Part shown: in pieces, positions 1 to 15,053 of the stretch
Position numbering within the stretch: position 1 is the stretch's first letter
Layout of the letters: each line of letters starts with the position of its first letter
NCBI GenBank assembly: GCA_028683955.1
Contig: JAQUGR010000003.1
Coordinates: 1 to 64,000 of the forward strand
DNA length: 64,000 nucleotides
Source of the DNA: Bacillota bacterium
GTDB lineage: Bacteria; Bacillota; TC1
Reading direction: 5' to 3'
The notes under the pieces: model-generated
Seen by the model: the letters and a program-made list of their open reading frames with translations, nothing else
Told to the model about the DNA's origin: nothing
The model's database searches: none
Program-made: the position numbers and the translations under genes

Positions 1-55
1 CAACTTTTATTTTAAATTCACCCGAATATTTCTTATGTTCTATTTTCTTTGTCAT
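1..55 (-). CDS. IS3-family transposase OrfA, N-terminal fragment (runs off the window)
   Basis: An ATG at base 55 opens a frame to the window edge that encodes about 18 residues, with the lysine-rich start MTKKIEHKKYSGEFKIKV. This is the usual beginning of IS3-family OrfA, the helix-turn-helix DNA-binding half of the transposase, which is normally joined to OrfB by a programmed -1 frameshift. The fragment is too short to judge whether the transposase is intact. Its ribosome binding site lies inside one arm of the 61-71/114-124 inverted repeat. Confidence 0.75.
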   Translation of the reverse strand, partial: MTKKIEHKKYSGEFKIKV

Positions 56-60
56 AGAAA

Positions 61-124
61 AACTGCACCCCTTTCGTTATTTATGCGGTAATTATACCAC
101 ATGTCTAACTTTTGGGGTGCAGTT
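61..124 (-). repeat. Inverted repeat in the IS leader that could hide the OrfA ribosome binding site
   Basis: The 11-mer AACTGCACCCC (61-71) is exactly complementary to GGGGTGCAGTT (114-124). On the minus strand the downstream arm contains GGGGTGCAG, which overlaps the OrfA Shine-Dalgarno. A transcript entering from glpK would contain both arms and could fold the ribosome site away. A transcript from the element's own -10 (91-96) would start inside the loop and lack the outer arm. This kind of protection against read-through transcription is established for some other IS elements. Here it is inferred from sequence only. Confidence 0.5.
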
Positions 125-126
125 CA

Positions 127-1040
127 ATAAAGACACTACCCTCTATAGCATAAGAAACTTTGCCACCATAGCTTATTCCTATAGTGGAAATAAGGCCTGA
201 TTTACTAATAACTAATTTTTCGCCAGTATTTACTAATAAAAAACAACCAGTGCCATATGTATTTTTAACATCACCAATATGATAACAGCCCTGTCCAAAT
301 AAGGCAGCCTGTTGATCACCTACTAAACTTGTTATAGGTATTTTATAACCATCAAAATCGTAATGACCAAAAACTCCACTTGATTCAACAACTTCAGGTA
401 ACATAGACATAGGTATATTTAAAGCTTCACATAAAACAGCATCCCAACAAAGATTCCTAATATTAAATAGCATTGTTCTTGATGCATTAGTCATATCCGT
501 CTTGTGCTCTGCACCACCAGTTAATTTGTATAACAACCAGCTTTCAACTGTACTAAAACCAAGATTTCCAGCTAAAGCTAATTCTTTAGCCCCCTCAATA
601 TTTTCTAATATCCAGGTGATTTTTGTGCCAGAAAAATAAGGATCAATAATTAGCCCTGTATTATTTCTTATGTACTCTGACATACCGCTCTTTTCTAATC
701 TTTGGCAAATTTCAACAGTTCTTCTACATTGCCAAACAATAGCATTATATATTGGCTCTCCAGTCAATTTATTAAATATTATCGTAGTTTCTCTTTGATT
801 TGCAATACCAATACCAGCAATTTCACTTTTGGAAATCCCTGACTTTTTTACAGCTTCTTTCATCACGTTGATAATTGAATTAAATAACTCCAAAGGATCA
901 TGCTCAATAAAACCTTCTTCAGGGTATATTTGCTTTATTTCCTTGCTAGCTATTCCTAAGATATTTTTCTCATCATCAAGAACCAACGCTCTAGAGCTTG
1001 TTGTCCCTTGATCTAAAGCTATGATGTATCTTTTCATCAT
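127..1040 (-). pseudogene. glpK: Glycerol kinase, 5' part, truncated by an IS element
   Basis: This is an FGGY-family glycerol kinase (glycerol + ATP to sn-glycerol 3-phosphate). The N-terminal phosphate-1 motif ALDQGTTSSRALV is present, followed by the family segments NQRETT, GLIIDPYFSGTKITW and TYGTGCFLL. About 304 native residues remain of the usual near 500. The frame then runs into the IS end and stops after a few foreign residues at base 105. The ATPase C-terminal half is missing, so the product cannot be active. Two adjacent ATGs (1040 and 1037) are possible starts, and GAGG favours the second. A short gap separates it from the SDR gene upstream, so the two were probably cotranscribed. 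Confidence 0.9.
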
Positions 1041-7331: not shown

Positions 7332-8003
7332 ATGAGTTATATAATAACCTTTATTGAAGGTGTTGTCGTTTTCATATCGCCTTGTATGTTACCTATGTTA
7401 CCAATCTATTTTTCATATATGATTGGTCAAAATGAAGAAAATAAAACGAAAAACACTTTGATAAATTCATTAGGTTTTGTTTTAGGTTTCACCATAATAT
7501 TTGTTACCCTTGGTGCACTAGCCGGTACACTTGGCAGTTATTTAATTATATATAAGACACCATTAAATATTATATCCGGTCTTTTCATCATCATATTAGG
7601 TCTTAATTTTATTGGTGCAATAAAATTACCCTTTCTTAATAGATCTTTCAAAGTAAATATTAAGAGAAAAGGTTCTGGTTTCTTACCATCCACCTTATTA
7701 GGAATGGTATTTTCTATAGGTTGGACCCCTTGTGTTGGTCCACTTTTAAGTACAGCTCTTTTACAAGCCTCAAGTACAGGTAGTGTATTACATGGAATAT
7801 TGCTACTGCTCACATTTTCATTAGGTTTGGGTGTGCCTTTTATTATCAGTGCTTTACTTATTGATAATTTGAAAAAAACATTTGATTTTATTAAAAAACA
7901 CACTAGAGTTGTTAATCTAATATCCGGATTGTTTCTTATATTAATTGGTCTACTTATGATAACTGGATATTTTGGATATTTCTTATCATTACTTAGTTTT
8001 TAG
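7332..8003 (+). CDS. ccdA: CcdA-type cytochrome c biogenesis/thiol-disulfide transport membrane protein
   Basis: This 223-residue, six-helix DsbD-beta family protein passes reducing equivalents from cytoplasmic thioredoxin across the membrane. The two redox cysteines are visible: Cys18 in SPCMLP of helix 1 and Cys134 in GWTPCVGP of helix 4. GGGAGG precedes the ATG. The partner thioredoxin-like gene follows 8 bases later, so CcdA probably reduces that protein. No cytochrome c assembly gene lies nearby. Confidence 0.92.
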   Translation: MSYIITFIEGVVVFISPCMLPMLPIYFSYMIGQNEENKTKNTLINSLGFVLGFTIIFVTLGALAGTLGSYLIIYKTPLNIISGLFIIILGLNFIGAIKLPFLNRSFKVNIKRKGSGFLPSTLLGMVFSIGWTPCVGPLLSTALLQASSTGSVLHGILLLLTFSLGLGVPFIISALLIDNLKKTFDFIKKHTRVVNLISGLFLILIGLLMITGYFGYFLSLLSF

Positions 8004-8011
8004 GAGGAAAA

Positions 8012-8560
8012 ATGAATAATACAAAAAAAGGTCTTTTAGGTATAGTTGCTTTTATAGTATTTATGTTAGTAGTTTCACTAGGTTATCAACTTATTACAAA
8101 AAATTATAATGGTGCTGCTAATGTTAATCAGTCAAATACAACTGAACAGGCTGCAGGAGATTTTAAGGTTAAAGATAGTGAGGGTAATATTGTATCCTTA
8201 TCTGATTTTAAAGGAAAACCTGTTGTGGTAAATTTTTGGGCTTCATGGTGTCCACCTTGTAAGCAAGAAATGCCATACTTTAATGAAGTCTATAAAGAAT
8301 TAGGATCTGAGGTTCAGTTTATGATGATTGATATTGTTGATGGTAGTAGAGAAACTGAAAATACAGCTAAGGCTTTTATTAAAGACAATGAATATGTTTT
8401 CCCAATTTTCTTTGATTCTGATCAAAGTGCTGCTATTGCAAATAGTATTTATTCTATCCCAACAACCATCTTTATTGACAAGGATGGTAACATTGTAGGA
8501 ACTCATACTGGAGCTTTTACTAAAAGTGATTTGTTAGCTGAAATAGATAAGATAAGATAA
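8012..8560 (+). CDS. Membrane-anchored TlpA/ResA-type thioredoxin-like protein
   Basis: The 182 residues comprise a short basic N-terminus, one membrane anchor (about 8-29), a Ser/Thr/Asn-rich linker and a thioredoxin fold. The redox site WCPPC is at residues 79-83 (Cys80 and Cys83), and a cis-Pro is in SIPTTIF. It acts outside the membrane, probably reducing disulfides of exported proteins with electrons from the adjacent CcdA. AGGAGG precedes the start. A strong hairpin terminator follows. Confidence 0.9.
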   Translation: MNNTKKGLLGIVAFIVFMLVVSLGYQLITKNYNGAANVNQSNTTEQAAGDFKVKDSEGNIVSLSDFKGKPVVVNFWASWCPPCKQEMPYFNEVYKELGSEVQFMMIDIVDGSRETENTAKAFIKDNEYVFPIFFDSDQSAAIANSIYSIPTTIFIDKDGNIVGTHTGAFTKSDLLAEIDKIR

Positions 8561-8601
8561 AATAAGATAATAATATATAAAACAAGCAATTAAAGCAAAT
8601 A

Positions 8602-8641
8602 AAAAGGTCATCACAGAGTATTAATTCTGAGATGACCTTTT
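8602..8641. terminator. Bidirectional rho-independent terminator between tlpA-like gene and nudC
   Basis: AAAAGGTCATC (8602-8612) pairs with GATGACCTTTT (8631-8641), with further pairing inside. A/T runs on both sides let it serve both convergent genes. Confidence 0.85.
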
Positions 8642-8649
8642 GTTATTCC

Positions 8650-9492
8650 TTATTCTTTAAATTTCCCAGTTCTAAAAGCTTCCATCATCTCCCCAGTCAG
8701 ACTAATCTTTAGTCCCTCTGGAGGAATATCTTTCCTATCCATCCATACACCTAAGGATAACTCCTCTTTTTGAAGAGTTATGGTATCATCTCCATCTAAC
8801 TCGGCAAAAAATCCAGCAAGAATCGTATCCGAAAAAGGCCAAGGTTGGCTTTTGAAAAACTTAAGATTTTTTACTTTCAATCCAACTTCTTCTTTCACTT
8901 CCCTATAAACTGTCTGCTCCAGGCTTTCTCCAATTTCGACAAAACCAGCAACTAGTCCATACCGTTTATAGTCTCGGCCATTATATTTGGTCAATAACAT
9001 ACGTTCCCCACTATAAATTCCCACAATTACACATGGGGAAATTGTCGGATATACTTGAAAAGAGCAAGCATTACAGAAGAGCATTCGTTCTTTGTCTGAT
9101 GGAAACATTTTTTCTCCACATCTACTGCAAAAGAGATGATTTTCATACCAGCGTTTTAACTGTAGACCAACTGCTCCAGCAAAAGAACGCCAATATTTTG
9201 GTTCTGTCCTGAATCTGAACGTAGAGACATAGCTCCAACTATCCACTGTATCTAGTCCTTTTTCCTCAGTCAAGAAATAATTTAACTCATCGATTGAAAA
9301 TAAAAAACGGGCATTATTAATCAGATAAGGGTGAGACTGTTCAAAATCGGAAAAAGATGGATACCAAAGTTTCTCTTTATCTTCTCTAACCAATACATTA
9401 TCCCCATTATATGAAAGGAACAAATCTCCAGACTGAGCTTTTAAAGATTGGAAATTATTATAAAATATTCTCGGTCCAATATCATGAATCAT
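8650..9492 (-). CDS. nudC: NAD+ diphosphatase (NudC-type Nudix hydrolase)
   Basis: Cleaves NAD(H) to NMN(H) and AMP; relatives also remove NAD caps from RNA. The start at 9492 is preceded by AGGGAG; longer in-frame reading lies inside wecB. In the 280-residue form a zinc ribbon has Cys122, Cys125, Cys140 and Cys143. The Nudix box runs from Gly183 to about 205 with REVKEEVG, and the NudC signature SQPWPF is at 215-220. It overlaps the end of wecB by 11 bases, so it is the last gene of the glycan operon. Such a position is unexpected for an NAD-metabolism enzyme. Confidence 0.93.
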   Translation of the reverse strand: MIHDIGPRIFYNNFQSLKAQSGDLFLSYNGDNVLVREDKEKLWYPSFSDFEQSHPYLINNARFLFSIDELNYFLTEEKGLDTVDSWSYVSTFRFRTEPKYWRSFAGAVGLQLKRWYENHLFCSRCGEKMFPSDKERMLFCNACSFQVYPTISPCVIVGIYSGERMLLTKYNGRDYKRYGLVAGFVEIGESLEQTVYREVKEEVGLKVKNLKFFKSQPWPFSDTILAGFFAELDGDDTITLQKEELSLGVWMDRKDIPPEGLKISLTGEMMEAFRTGKFKE

Positions 9493-10621
9493 AAGGCACT
9501 CCCTTGTTATTAAAAGCAGCTTGAAAATATTCTTGGATAGCATCAGCTATATAACGAGAAGCAAAACCATCACCATATGGGTTTTTAGCACCACTCATTT
9601 CATCATATGCAGTTTTATTATCCAGTAGTATTTTTATATTTATATAAATATCTTCAATATCAGTACCAATAAGTTTTAACGTACCACATTCTACTCCCTC
9701 AGGTCTTTCAGTTGTGTTCCGAAGTACCAAAACTGGTTTACCAAGAGATGGTGCCTCTTCTTGAATTCCTCCACTATCGGTCAAAACAAGATAAGACTGT
9801 GCAATAAAATTATGAAAATCAAACACATCAAGAGGTTCTATAATTTTAATTCTTTCTTGATTACTCAATATCTTATCTGCAATTTCTCGAACAGCAGGAT
9901 TCATATGAATCGGGTATATAACACAAACATCATCATACTCATCTACAATTCTTTTAACAGCAGTAAAAATATTCTCCATTGGTTTACCTAAGTTTTCTCT
10001 ACGATGTGCGGTTAATAAAATAATTCTCTTATTTTCTTGTTGAGATAAAAAAGGGTGTTGGTAATCTTCAAAGACAGTTGATTTCAAAACATCAATAGCT
10101 GTGTTACCAGTAATATAAACGCCACTATTTTTACCTTCATTCCTAAGATTATCTGCACTTTGTTCTGTTGGTGCAAAAAACATATCTGAAATACAATCAA
10201 CCATTTGTCGATTTGCTTCTTCAGGGAAGGGTGAGTATTTATTCCAGGTACGTAATCCTGCTTCCACATGTCCAATTGTGATTTTTTCATAAAATGAAGC
10301 CAAAGCTCCAGCAAAAGAAGTTGTAGTATCACCATGAACTAATACAATATCTGGTTGTTCCATCTGTAAAATAGGTGTTAGTAATTCAAGTACACTCATT
10401 GTAATGCTATCAAGAGTTTGCCTGTTCTTCATTATGTTAAGATCATACTTTGGAGTTATTTTGAAAAATGAAAGTACTTGGTCAAGCATTTCTCTTTGTT
10501 GCGCAGTAACACAAACGACACATTCAAATTCCTTGCGATCTTGTAATTCTTTTACCAATGGTGCCATTTTTATTGCTTCAGGTCTAGTCCCAAATACAAG
10601 AAATGTTTTTATTTTTCTCAT
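9482..10621 (-). CDS. wecB: UDP-N-acetylglucosamine 2-epimerase (non-hydrolysing)
   Basis: Interconverts UDP-GlcNAc and UDP-ManNAc in the cytoplasm. The roughly 379-residue GT-B fold shows GTRPEAIKMAPL at 11-22, VHGDTTTSFAG, GHVEAGLRT, LTAHRRENLG and TDSGGIQEEAPSLG, all epimerase hallmarks. The start is set at ATG 10621, which has AAAAGGGATGG upstream. A TTG at 10642 that overlaps the nfrB-like stop as TTGA is an alternative that would give coupling. It directly follows an NfrB-like glycosyltransferase, so UDP-ManNAc made here is the likely donor for that enzyme. In E. coli the same gene is also known as nfrC. Confidence 0.95.
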   Translation of the reverse strand: MRKIKTFLVFGTRPEAIKMAPLVKELQDRKEFECVVCVTAQQREMLDQVLSFFKITPKYDLNIMKNRQTLDSITMSVLELLTPILQMEQPDIVLVHGDTTTSFAGALASFYEKITIGHVEAGLRTWNKYSPFPEEANRQMVDCISDMFFAPTEQSADNLRNEGKNSGVYITGNTAIDVLKSTVFEDYQHPFLSQQENKRIILLTAHRRENLGKPMENIFTAVKRIVDEYDDVCVIYPIHMNPAVREIADKILSNQERIKIIEPLDVFDFHNFIAQSYLVLTDSGGIQEEAPSLGKPVLVLRNTTERPEGVECGTLKLIGTDIEDIYINIKILLDNKTAYDEMSGAKNPYGDGFASRYIADAIQEYFQAAFNNKGVPYDS

Positions 10622-10638
10622 TAAACTACCATCCCTTT

Positions 10639-12669
10639 TCAAATATTAGCTTCATTTTCAACAACCAATAATCCCATGGATTGTAAAATTTCATCAGATG
10701 ATTTACCTGTTCCAATAGCATGGTTACATGCAATAATATATTGTTCAGTATTTATTTTGTTAGTGTTTAAAAGATTAAATGCTATAGTGTTTTTAAATTT
10801 AGATTTTTTCAAACCAAACATTATTTCAAGACCTTCTCTAACCATTTCAGTTGTAGTAAAAGCAGATAATATTTTTATCCCTAATTTTTCGCGTAATATT
10901 GTTTGTGCATCATCAGGACTGCTTTCACAGTAGGCAATTACAAAACTGTTGCCAGCAGAAACAATAGGCAATACCATTAATTCTTCTAATAGGTCTTTAT
11001 CAAACTTAGAAGTAAATGAAGGTAAATCATATGTAGAAAAATCTCCCATATCTACAAACTCAATTCCTTTAATATGAGCTAATACCTCTAAAAGCTGATG
11101 TTCATTTATAAGTCCTTCTTGTAATAAATATTCACCAATATGTATTTTGGCCGGTTTCTTGTTAAGGGTTTCTTTTAATGCTTCGGGTGTTATTAACCCC
11201 TTCTCAATCAACACATCACCAAATGTTCTATGATAACGGTTCAATACTTCTTTTGGAAGAAATGTATGATCTGTTTTACTCCATGCAAAGCTTTGTTGTT
11301 TTTTATCTACTTTTTTCTTTTCCTTATTCCCTGATAAACTTTGAATATAGGCCTTTATGGTAGCGGATAAATTGATTACATTCCCCCAAATTATACGTAA
11401 AGGCAAGATAGGTGGTAGTAGACAAGCAAAAAACATGCTCTTAAATCCATACACATTATATACAGCAATAGACCTGGAAATCTGTCGCTCTATCATCATT
11501 ATTGTGACAATTAAGCTTAAATACCAAGATAATGAAAAAAATGGATAAATAGGAGTTAGTGGCATAAATAAGGATACAAAAAAATAAACAAGAACAGGAT
11601 AACCCACAAAAACTAATAAATTCCCAATTTTCGCTTTTAAATCTCTATAAAGGGAATATCTTCCCATGAAACTCAATCCATTTTTTGCGAATATATCTTT
11701 GAATGCTACCGATTGCATAGTTATTCCTAATATCCAGCGAGTTTTTTGTTTAACTGCTGCTTTAAAGGTTGTAGGAAACATAGATCGTGTGGCAATGTAA
11801 TCGAAGATTATTTTATCATCCCTTGAAACACGTGGAATTAAATCTAAAACATAACGAATCCTCAATCCTTTTTCAAATAGTGTTAATGATAGTCGATAAT
11901 CCTCTGTTATGCTGTCATTTGGTAATATTTCATCTGTTTCAAAAGTATCAATAGTTTTCCTTGAAAGTGCAAATCCAGTTCCAGCAGAAGGTACAAATGC
12001 ACCTGTACTATATCTTCCTACCATAACGTTAAAATGATTCTCTGCAAATTCATCTGCATATGTACTAACAGTCATTGTTTTAAAAAAATTGCTGAATTTT
12101 GGCATTTGCATTAAAGGGAATACCGGAAACTGTAAACCATCATATTTATCTATCATGTAATTTGTAACCATAAACTCATATGGATGGATTACATCTTCCG
12201 CATCATGAACAGTTATTGATGCGAATCTCCAGCCAAATTGTTTTTCATATTGCTTAACTTGAGAAATTACATAGTTAATATTTTGAGCTTTAGTTGTTGG
12301 ACCTGGAAGTACATTTATAACCATATGTACATTAGAAAATCTTTTTTCCATTTCTTTAACAACATCTATTGTCTCTTGATCATTAGGATAAACTCCTACA
12401 AATAAATGATACATTGATTTTGGATACTGAATTGAAGAAATCAGATTTTCAATAACTGCTCCAATAACTTGAGATTCATTCCATGCTCCAATTGTCACCG
12501 CTAATAGCTTCTCTGGTGTTTTACGAATCACTTTAAAATCTAATCGTTTATTTTTGAATTGAGCACGCTTAGTTAAGGAATAAATATCCCATAAAAAATC
12601 ATCAAAACCCATAGTTAAATATAATGTTACCAGTATTAATCCTATAACATATAGTGTGTTTTCAAACAT
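10639..12669 (-). CDS. NfrB-like membrane glycosyltransferase (GT2) with C-terminal MshEN-like domain
   Basis: This 676-residue inner-membrane glycan polymerase candidate starts with one membrane helix (about 5-25). A GT2 domain follows, with GAWNES at 61-66, the acidic DAED at 156-159, the catalytic TED at 255-257 and the Q-x-x-R-W motif at 308-312. Three or more membrane helices span about 348-440. After a basic linker, residues about 480-540 form two tandem MshEN-type repeats (GDVLIEKGLI and GEYLLQEGLI), followed by a GSPII_E-like tail. This order matches E. coli NfrB, whose MshEN domain binds c-di-GMP and which uses UDP-ManNAc. Here the repeat positions that are normally Arg and Gln are Thr482/His510 and Lys505/Ile533, so ligand binding is uncertain. 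It has its own promoter upstream. Confidence 0.82.
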   Translation of the reverse strand: MFENTLYVIGLILVTLYLTMGFDDFLWDIYSLTKRAQFKNKRLDFKVIRKTPEKLLAVTIGAWNESQVIGAVIENLISSIQYPKSMYHLFVGVYPNDQETIDVVKEMEKRFSNVHMVINVLPGPTTKAQNINYVISQVKQYEKQFGWRFASITVHDAEDVIHPYEFMVTNYMIDKYDGLQFPVFPLMQMPKFSNFFKTMTVSTYADEFAENHFNVMVGRYSTGAFVPSAGTGFALSRKTIDTFETDEILPNDSITEDYRLSLTLFEKGLRIRYVLDLIPRVSRDDKIIFDYIATRSMFPTTFKAAVKQKTRWILGITMQSVAFKDIFAKNGLSFMGRYSLYRDLKAKIGNLLVFVGYPVLVYFFVSLFMPLTPIYPFFSLSWYLSLIVTIMMIERQISRSIAVYNVYGFKSMFFACLLPPILPLRIIWGNVINLSATIKAYIQSLSGNKEKKKVDKKQQSFAWSKTDHTFLPKEVLNRYHRTFGDVLIEKGLITPEALKETLNKKPAKIHIGEYLLQEGLINEHQLLEVLAHIKGIEFVDMGDFSTYDLPSFTSKFDKDLLEELMVLPIVSAGNSFVIAYCESSPDDAQTILREKLGIKILSAFTTTEMVREGLEIMFGLKKSKFKNTIAFNLLNTNKINTEQYIIACNHAIGTGKSSDEILQSMGLLVVENEANI

Positions 12670-12920: not shown

Positions 12921-13517
12921 TTACCTAGGTACGCCTTTTGTATATACGTAATATTTATCAGACTGTTTACCATTAGAGGTAACATAATAAAGATATATTT
13001 TCGAAGCATTTGTACCATTATACCAAATCACAATTGATCCCTGATAATAACTATTTATAGTCTTAGTTGCGCCTGGTGTATAACTTGCCCCTTTATCTGT
13101 TGTAATATAAAGTGCTTGCTGTGAATATAACCCATCACCAAGATTACTTGACCAATTTACCACACCAACCTTACCACTTTTATTATTTACATAACCAAGA
13201 ATATTTGAATTATCACTGTCTCCTGGCCCATTTAATATTTCCCAATTAGACTCTAAATGTCTTGAAAAATAATCTGCACTTCCACTTGAACTTTTTACAT
13301 ATGTAAATATATGTTGATCATCAAATCCTTCAACAAGCATTTCAGTTGTTAAATATGTAGATAAATTTTTTGTACTCGAAATGAGTTTCGTATCCATTGC
13401 AGATTCAACATAACCAGAAAAGATTGGTATTGAAACAGCTGCAAGTATTGCCACTATTGCCACAACTACAACCACCTCAATTAAAGTAAAACCTCTGTAT
13501 CCATTCTTTTTTTTCAT
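12921..13517 (-). CDS. Solitary type IV pilin-like protein
   Basis: This 198-residue protein has a type III prepilin signal. The basic leader ends at Gly9, followed by Phe10 and Glu14 (RGFTLIEV), then a hydrophobic helix to about residue 33. The C-terminal part is rich in Ser, Asn and Tyr, with strands such as YYVTSNGKQ, as in pilin globular heads. It should be cleaved after Gly9 by a prepilin peptidase. None is in the window, nor is any pilus ATPase or platform gene. It sits between the diguanylate cyclase gene and the NfrB-like gene, which suggests a link to the surface glycan. That link is an inference from position. Confidence 0.85.
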   Translation of the reverse strand: MKKKNGYRGFTLIEVVVVVAIVAILAAVSIPIFSGYVESAMDTKLISSTKNLSTYLTTEMLVEGFDDQHIFTYVKSSSGSADYFSRHLESNWEILNGPGDSDNSNILGYVNNKSGKVGVVNWSSNLGDGLYSQQALYITTDKGASYTPGATKTINSYYQGSIVIWYNGTNASKIYLYYVTSNGKQSDKYYVYTKGVPR

Positions 13518-13671: not shown

Positions 13672-15053
13672 CTACCGGTTAATTCTTTCATTAAAAAACT
13701 CCACAAATTTTTTATGGTTGGTTTCTTTTTCTTTATACATCTGATCATCTGCTTCTTTAATAGTTGCAGTTACCGAGTCATTATCATAAATATTCCCAAT
13801 AGACCAACCTATAGATACACTTAAAGGTAACTTAATATTTTTTTTATTATATGAAATGAGGTTTTTTCTAACCCTCTCACTTGCTAATTCTACTGCTTTC
13901 CCATCACTAAAAGGCATAATGACAGTAAATTCATCACCACCCACACGAAGAATTATATCACTTTTCCTAAAACTCTTATTAAGAATCTTACTAGCATTAA
14001 TTATTAAAGCATCACCTTGAGCGTGACCTAGGTTATCATTGACTAGCTTTAAGCCGTCAATATCAATAACAACTATACCTACAGGATTGTAATCACCCTT
14101 TATAATACTATTTACAATATCTTCCATATAAGTTCTGTTAAAAAGTCCTGTTAACTGATCATGAAAACTTAGATATTGAAGCCTTTCCTCAATTATTTTA
14201 TAATCAGTTAAATCATCAATAATAATTACTGTACCATCATATTTGTTACTTACATCAAGCATTTTATGAAATTTAATTAGTAAGTTTCTTTCTCCTTGTG
14301 AAGGTGCATTAAATTTTTTTCAATATTTCTAGAGGTTTCTGCACTTTTAACAAATTCCATATAATCATCATTAAGCCATGGCAAAATGTCATGTATAAAT
14401 TCAGGGTTCTTTTGATTTGAATAGTATACTGACCCAGGATTTGTTTGATCCTTATGTAAAATCACAAGTCCTGAATAATTAATATTAATACATTGATGTT
14501 TTGAATCAATAATAAAAGTAGGATTTGAAGAACTCTCAAAAATTGTCAAGTATTTGTTTTTTTCATTGGTCATTTTCATCATATTGACTTGAATTTTATT
14601 TAATACAGTCTCTTCGGATTGTGTTGTCCACTCATTTATGTAGCTAATTTCATTTATATCAAAAAATCTATTTGTCCAAAGCCTATAAGTCTTCAATCTG
14701 TCAAGCTCCAAGTCAGATTCTTCCAATAAATCAATGTAAGCTTGTCGGTAATATTTTATAAATGATAAAAACATAGTTAAACTTACACCTCTATTACGGT
14801 GTTTCCTAGCTTCAAGAATACCAAAGGCTGAAATTGGAGACTCCGAAAAGTCATGATCAACTTCAATTTCAGGTATACTTCTATCACTTTCTATCCCCTC
14901 TACAAACCCCTTAGTCAGACCGGCTATGGATAGTGCCCAAGCTTCTTCAAGAGTGGAGGTGTACTTTGTATATCCAAGAAGTTGTGCATAGTGCAATATA
15001 CGTTTAATTAGAAATGATTGATTGTTTTTTACTAAATCAATAAGTTCTTGCAT
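13672..15053 (-). pseudogene. PAS-GGDEF diguanylate cyclase, split by a one-base frameshift
   Basis: The first frame (15053 to 14277, 258 residues) is a helical sensor region followed by a PAS domain (KYLTIFESSSNPTFIID onward). It ends early at TAA. The second frame (ATG 14262 to 13672) has the end of the PAS domain and a full GGDEF domain, with RVGGDEF intact and an inhibitory-site RKSD five residues before it. Reading past the stop in the second frame gives QGERNLLIKFHK, a natural PAS strand. Adding one base near 14297-14300 restores a single 460-residue protein. GGDEF enzymes make c-di-GMP from two GTP. The catalytic half might still be made from ATG 14262. Confidence 0.8.

Follow-up and report, generated by a model that had tools for sequence, protein, structure and literature searches.

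The window analysed here, a stretch of 64,000 nucleotides, carries a gene for an NfrB-like membrane protein, with a wecB-type gene at one end and a lone pilin-like gene beyond the other. The features are as follows.

10639..12669, minus strand: nfrB-like gene, 676 aa (translation and profile searches)
11680..12504, minus strand: GT2 domain, residues 56-330 (Pfam-A and translation)
11155..11229, minus strand: MshEN motif I together with the Arg ahead of it, residues 481-505 (R481, T482, G484, D485, K505)
11227..11229, minus strand: Arg481 codon, one residue ahead of the canonical Arg
11215..11217, minus strand: Asp485 codon (conservation among related loci)
11071..11145, minus strand: MshEN motif II, residues 509-533 (H510, G512, I533)
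10819..11070, minus strand: MshEN C-subdomain, residues 534-617 (structure model)
10642..10788, minus strand: what is left of a second MshEN bundle, residues 628-676, with motif III at 628-651 and the beginning of motif IV at 657-668
9482..10642, minus strand: wecB-type UDP-GlcNAc 2-epimerase gene (TIGR00236), as listed overlapping the end of the nfrB-like gene
12921-13517, minus strand: lone type IV pilin-like gene, between the nfrB-like gene and a split GGDEF gene

The nfrB-like product starts with a GT2 glycosyltransferase, followed by membrane helices, a first MshEN bundle with its C-subdomain, and the remnant of a second bundle. The signatures of processive GT2 enzymes (Asp motif, TED, QxxRW) are all present (H155-D-A-E-D159, T255-E-D, Q308-K-T-R-W312), and most of their residues are invariant in a seven-row alignment. 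Pfam-A by itself reports glycosyltransferase families only in this protein. At 43.3 bits, the match to the NCBIfam model NF053729, which describes the c-di-GMP motif, clears the cut-off of 38, and the MshEN assignment is therefore not a chance match. The NfrB equivalog model NF008411 reaches 321.2 bits over 660 residues, far short of its cut-off of 1170. Its sequence places the protein among the Gram-positive-type relatives of NfrB, as a membrane-bound GT2 synthase whose MshEN domain lies directly behind the helices.

The MshEN domain was modelled with a pLDDT of 90.8. Its best structural match is the N-terminal domain of MshE (5htl_A; Z 13.5, 139 aligned residues, rmsd 3.2), and the PilF GSPII-B structures match with a Z of ~12. 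Residues 21..161 of the model align to 5..145 of the 5htl_A chain in a register that agrees at the start, the alignment being reported by its end residues only. Helix alpha1 of the model begins at motif position 2, as it also does in a Legionella control with intact motifs. As modelled, the fold of the sensor domain is that of MshE, whereas all four Arg and Gln contacts differ. The first-pass annotation had named these four positions as non-canonical within 10939-11259, which encodes residues 471-577 and so takes in the two motifs and some of the C-subdomain; translation and alignments agree on every one. Motif I reads R481-T482-F-G484-D485-V-L-I-E-K-G491-L-I-T-P-E-A-L498-K-E-T-L502-N-K-K505 and motif II reads I509-H510-I-G512-E-Y-L-L-Q-E-G519-L-I-N-E-H-Q-L526-L-E-V-L530-A-H-I533. 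Aligned to MshE (5htl) with phmmer, which pairs T482 with R9 and G484 with G11 and makes the linker one residue shorter, Thr482, Lys505, His510 and Ile533 stand opposite Arg9, Gln32, Arg38 and Gln61.

PilF GSPII-B from Thermus thermophilus is likewise an MshEN fold without the canonical Arg: with Lys and Leu in place of the two Arg, it binds c-di-GMP at 6 nM, tighter than MshE, and its authors put forward (R/K/L)LG...Q as a broader consensus (PMC11731258). Thr482 and His510 fall outside even this widened form, the extended consensus (R/K/L)LGxx(L/V/I)(L/V/I)xxG...Q being replaced in our sequence by T-F-G...K and H-I-G...I. E. coli NfrB, whose motif I starts Arg-Pro-Leu-Gly (Pro489) and ends in Arg512, binds c-di-GMP at 1.0 uM (PMC8669469). 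Since both proteins bind the ligand, a lost Arg is uninformative on ligand loss. The two Gln, retained in GSPII-B and gone from the nfrB-like protein, are informative, because single Q-to-E changes cost PilF 158- and 77-fold in affinity, and combining them (Q190E+Q218E in GSPII-B) left no binding (PMC11731258). The earlier suggestion that the domain may have lost its ligand thus keeps its force where it relied on the Gln and loses it where it relied on the Arg. In MshE, Wang et al. found a more than 10-fold loss of affinity for the hydrophobic residues and at most a ~five-fold loss for Arg9, Asp12 or Gln32 (PMC5013675).

E. coli NfrB, a c-di-GMP-activated NGR synthase (PMC8669469, PMC8669472), resembles our protein in its GT2 domain, membrane helices and MshEN domain, in the 28-residue spacing of the motifs, in a non-canonical motif I and in its link to WecB. 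It differs in having the motif-II Arg517 and Gln540, both absent from the nfrB-like protein, and in a longer second C-terminal bundle, which is short and degenerate here. Among the changes made in E. coli NfrB, G491L and G519S affected function and most others did not (PMC8669472).

Relatives were fetched as the best 80 of 323, a sample biased to sequences like the nfrB-like protein, and 65 Gram-positive-type loci among these 80 were readable at the motifs. The 65 do not include L062, L067 and L075, which stop before the MshEN domain, L024, which is truncated by its contig, seven rows from Legionella, or L079, L080, L082 and L089. L078 and L081 do count among the 65, though the tree places them beyond the branch, and both retain the motif-II Gln. 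The motif-I Gln is present in 0/65 of these loci and the motif-II Gln in 3/65, and 62/65 lack both. Without L078 and L081, the motif-II Gln is found in 1/63 branch members, the NfrB-like protein of Eggerthella sinensis (L061); Val, Ile or Leu, mostly Val or Ile, takes its place in 54 of the 65. The guanine-facing Gly at position 3 is present in 64/65 (motif I) and 62/65 (motif II), and positions 2, 17 and 21 are hydrophobic in 61-65 of the 65. Arg at position 0 of motif I (Arg481) occurs in 61 of these loci and Asp4 of the same motif (Asp485) in 64. The two stand together in 60, of which 53 have no position-1 Arg, a residue seen in 9/65 at motif I and 24/65 at motif II. The E. coli NfrB branch has the motif-II Gln in 11/11 rows, with motif-I Arg and Gln variable, and Legionella has both Gln in 7/7 rows. 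On a quick GT-domain tree (LG+G4, without bootstraps), the motif-II Gln changes 3 times and the motif-I Gln 4 times, against 14 and 13 changes for the position-1 Arg. By these sequence comparisons the Gln states are branch markers, and the Arg states flicker. A loss particular to one protein was considered and rejected, as the related loci and the tree show it to run branch-wide.

The missing Gln could mean that ligand binding is lost altogether and that the bundle, now without ligand, serves the glycosyltransferase as a rigid module for coupling or docking, in the manner of PilF GSPII-A or XpsE, an account we consider plausible but less likely than not. In the non-binder GSPII-A, both Gln and the motif-II Arg are replaced as in our protein, and repair of motif-II position 1 and both Gln gave measurable binding (PMC12002112); the nfrB-like bundle has these same three defects, which speaks against a c-di-GMP site. 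XpsE, another non-binder, has Val at the motif-II Gln position. In the sister species, an 82%-identical relative, motif-II position 17 is His, and the NF053729 score of 31.1 bits, below the cut-off of 38, also weighs against a retained site. However, XpsE has lost both Gly and GSPII-A has one replaced (Ala41 at the motif-II Gly; PMC12002112), whereas the nfrB-like protein has both, including Gly512. Against the 82%-identical relative, dN/dS is ~0.10 for the GT domain and ~0.27 for the bundle, which as judged from these sequences is constrained under purifying selection. Change in the bundle outpaces that in the GT domain by a factor of ~2.7, a ratio inside the range seen for Legionella pairs with intact motifs (up to 2.8), so there is no special relaxation of the bundle; accelerated decay was rejected on the same comparison.

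The second MshEN bundle at the C-terminus of NfrB-type proteins offers an internal control; the searched passages of PMC8669469 gave no mention of it. NF053729 finds two stretches each in E. coli NfrB and in the basal relatives L055 and L070, the C-terminal one scoring better in L055 and L070. In 10 basal relatives the first motif of bundle 2 is intact (Arg 10/10, Gly 10/10, Gln 10/10), and the same proteins have no Gln in either motif of bundle 1. Across 53 derived rows including the nfrB-like protein, the guanine-facing Gly is kept in 102/106 bundle-1 half-sites vs 1/106 in bundle 2, a count made without L056 (a run of N in its tail) and without L078 and L081 (differing tails). The bundle-2 remnant of the nfrB-like protein has itself lost both of these Gly. 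Since the second bundle of the same proteins has lost its Gly, the Gly of bundle 1 is not kept merely for the fold, though the contexts of the two bundles differ; this argues against outright loss of the ligand. The second bundle was noted in this protein and in L054-L074; canonical in basal relatives, it is degenerate in the nfrB-like protein, where another conserved pattern (E-Q ... M-G) stands in its place.

We favour, at about even confidence, a remodelled and probably weaker c-di-GMP site over outright loss. The branch retains the backbone that would recognise guanine (the position-3 Gly of each motif) as well as the hydrophobic residues for stacking, and the stacking Arg of motif I appears in effect to be shifted one residue upstream, as Arg481 paired with Asp485. 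In MshE the position-4 Asp holds the position-1 Arg (PMC11731258), and from the sequence we infer that Arg481-Asp485 may substitute for MshE Arg9-Asp12. The two Gln that would clamp phosphate and ribose are swapped for Lys505 and Ile533. c-di-GMP would still be bound, probably more weakly, and would activate the synthase, as it does E. coli NfrB. The adjacent WecB probably feeds UDP-ManNAc to the GT2 synthase. TIGR00236 scores 500.3 bits on this WecB-type epimerase against a cut-off of 210.15, and a wecB gene lies in the flank at 18/80 loci (best 80 of 323). The listed start of the wecB-type gene is a TTG codon, and a later Met start is possible. We infer the ligand, affinity, activation and substrate of the synthase from sequence, conservation, fold and gene neighbourhood. 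Going further, the Gram-positive-type NfrB-like branch might form a distinct MshEN class with a Gln-free pocket, an upstream Arg-Asp pair in place of the clamp and altered affinity or cyclic-dinucleotide specificity, an extension that we hold only tentatively and think rather unlikely.

Loss of c-di-GMP signalling from the genome as a whole was rejected, as the 1.59-Mb genome of the nfrB-like gene encodes 16 GGDEF domains, together with 2 EAL domains and 3 c-di-GMP-I riboswitches. PilZ had no match in this genome, and no Rfam family scored above its gathering score in the window. Two MshEN proteins only were found in the genome, the nfrB-like protein and a PilB (L001 1483-3159); motif I of this PilB is intact (RIG...Q), but its motif II carries Arg at the end and Asn in place of the structural Gly. 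GGDEF was surveyed in the genomes of 49 of the 80 loci (best 80 of 323) plus this one. It is encoded by 48/50 carriers vs 279/299 genomes of a phylum sample, which is not clearly higher, and this background-like frequency counts against a c-di-GMP site, as does one carrier MAG (L043/G423, a branch member whose assembly may be incomplete) with no GGDEF even at E 0.5 and both Gly present. GGDEF genes lie in the nfrB flanks at 6 of the 80 loci, so linkage is not general. Four carrier genomes (L018, L048, L051, L053) have a single GGDEF match, and its position relative to nfrB was read for L018. In this genome, UBA945 (a MAG that may be incomplete), the sole GGDEF found sits in a GAF-PAS-GGDEF-EAL gene (7868-10513) that begins, on the same strand, 28 nt past the nfrB-like stop codon, and the NfrB-like protein of this genome has neither Gln.

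These observations also bear on a pocket remodelled for another nucleotide, such as 3',3'-cGAMP, c-di-AMP or a linear product, by specific replacement and not by random decay. Arg481, Asp485 and the motif-II Val, Ile or Leu are conserved branch-specific replacements of the kind it predicts, MshE binds cGAMP weakly (PMC5013675), and the GGDEF-less MAG fits it as well. However, the Gly3 backbone that recognises guanine O6/N7 is retained, and at that site c-di-AMP clashes in MshE (PMC5013675). The near-universal GGDEF among carriers and the L018 operon, holding the only GGDEF found in its genome, also point away from this idea, which we judge improbable.

MshEN motifs serve to predict c-di-GMP-responsive proteins, and the branch separates the Arg from the Gln criterion. 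Having two bundles per protein, one with the guanine-facing Gly and one without, it provides an internal control for the residues that predict binding, and the branch-wide swap of grip residues makes it a good test of how far the chemistry of a c-di-GMP sensor can drift. If the remodelled site does bind, regulation by c-di-GMP of what is probably a ManNAc-type polymer would reach many Clostridia-like bacteria; the literature we found goes no further than mentioning NfrB homologs in rare Gram-positives, Eggerthella among them.

The pilin-like gene lies ~250 nt upstream of the nfrB-like gene, and the first-pass annotation had offered the pilin as one possible partner of the MshEN domain. Binding of this or another pilus protein seems to us highly improbable: at the 80 loci (best 80 of 323), blastp found no relative of the pilin in the nfrB flanks (<=7 kb), pilin-like regex matches occur in 3 loci only and 4-5 kb off, and L012, the closest relative, is without a pilin. 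The pilin was rejected as a conserved partner. Beyond it lies a PAS-GGDEF gene (13672-15053, minus strand) split by a frameshift into ORFs 14277-15053 and 13672-14262; at E 1e-10, none of 9 other genomes of the class has a relative of its PAS half. On three proteobacterial plasmids (L101, L103, L104), an nfrB-like gene adjoins a gene annotated as BcsB, the cellulose c-di-GMP-binding regulatory protein.
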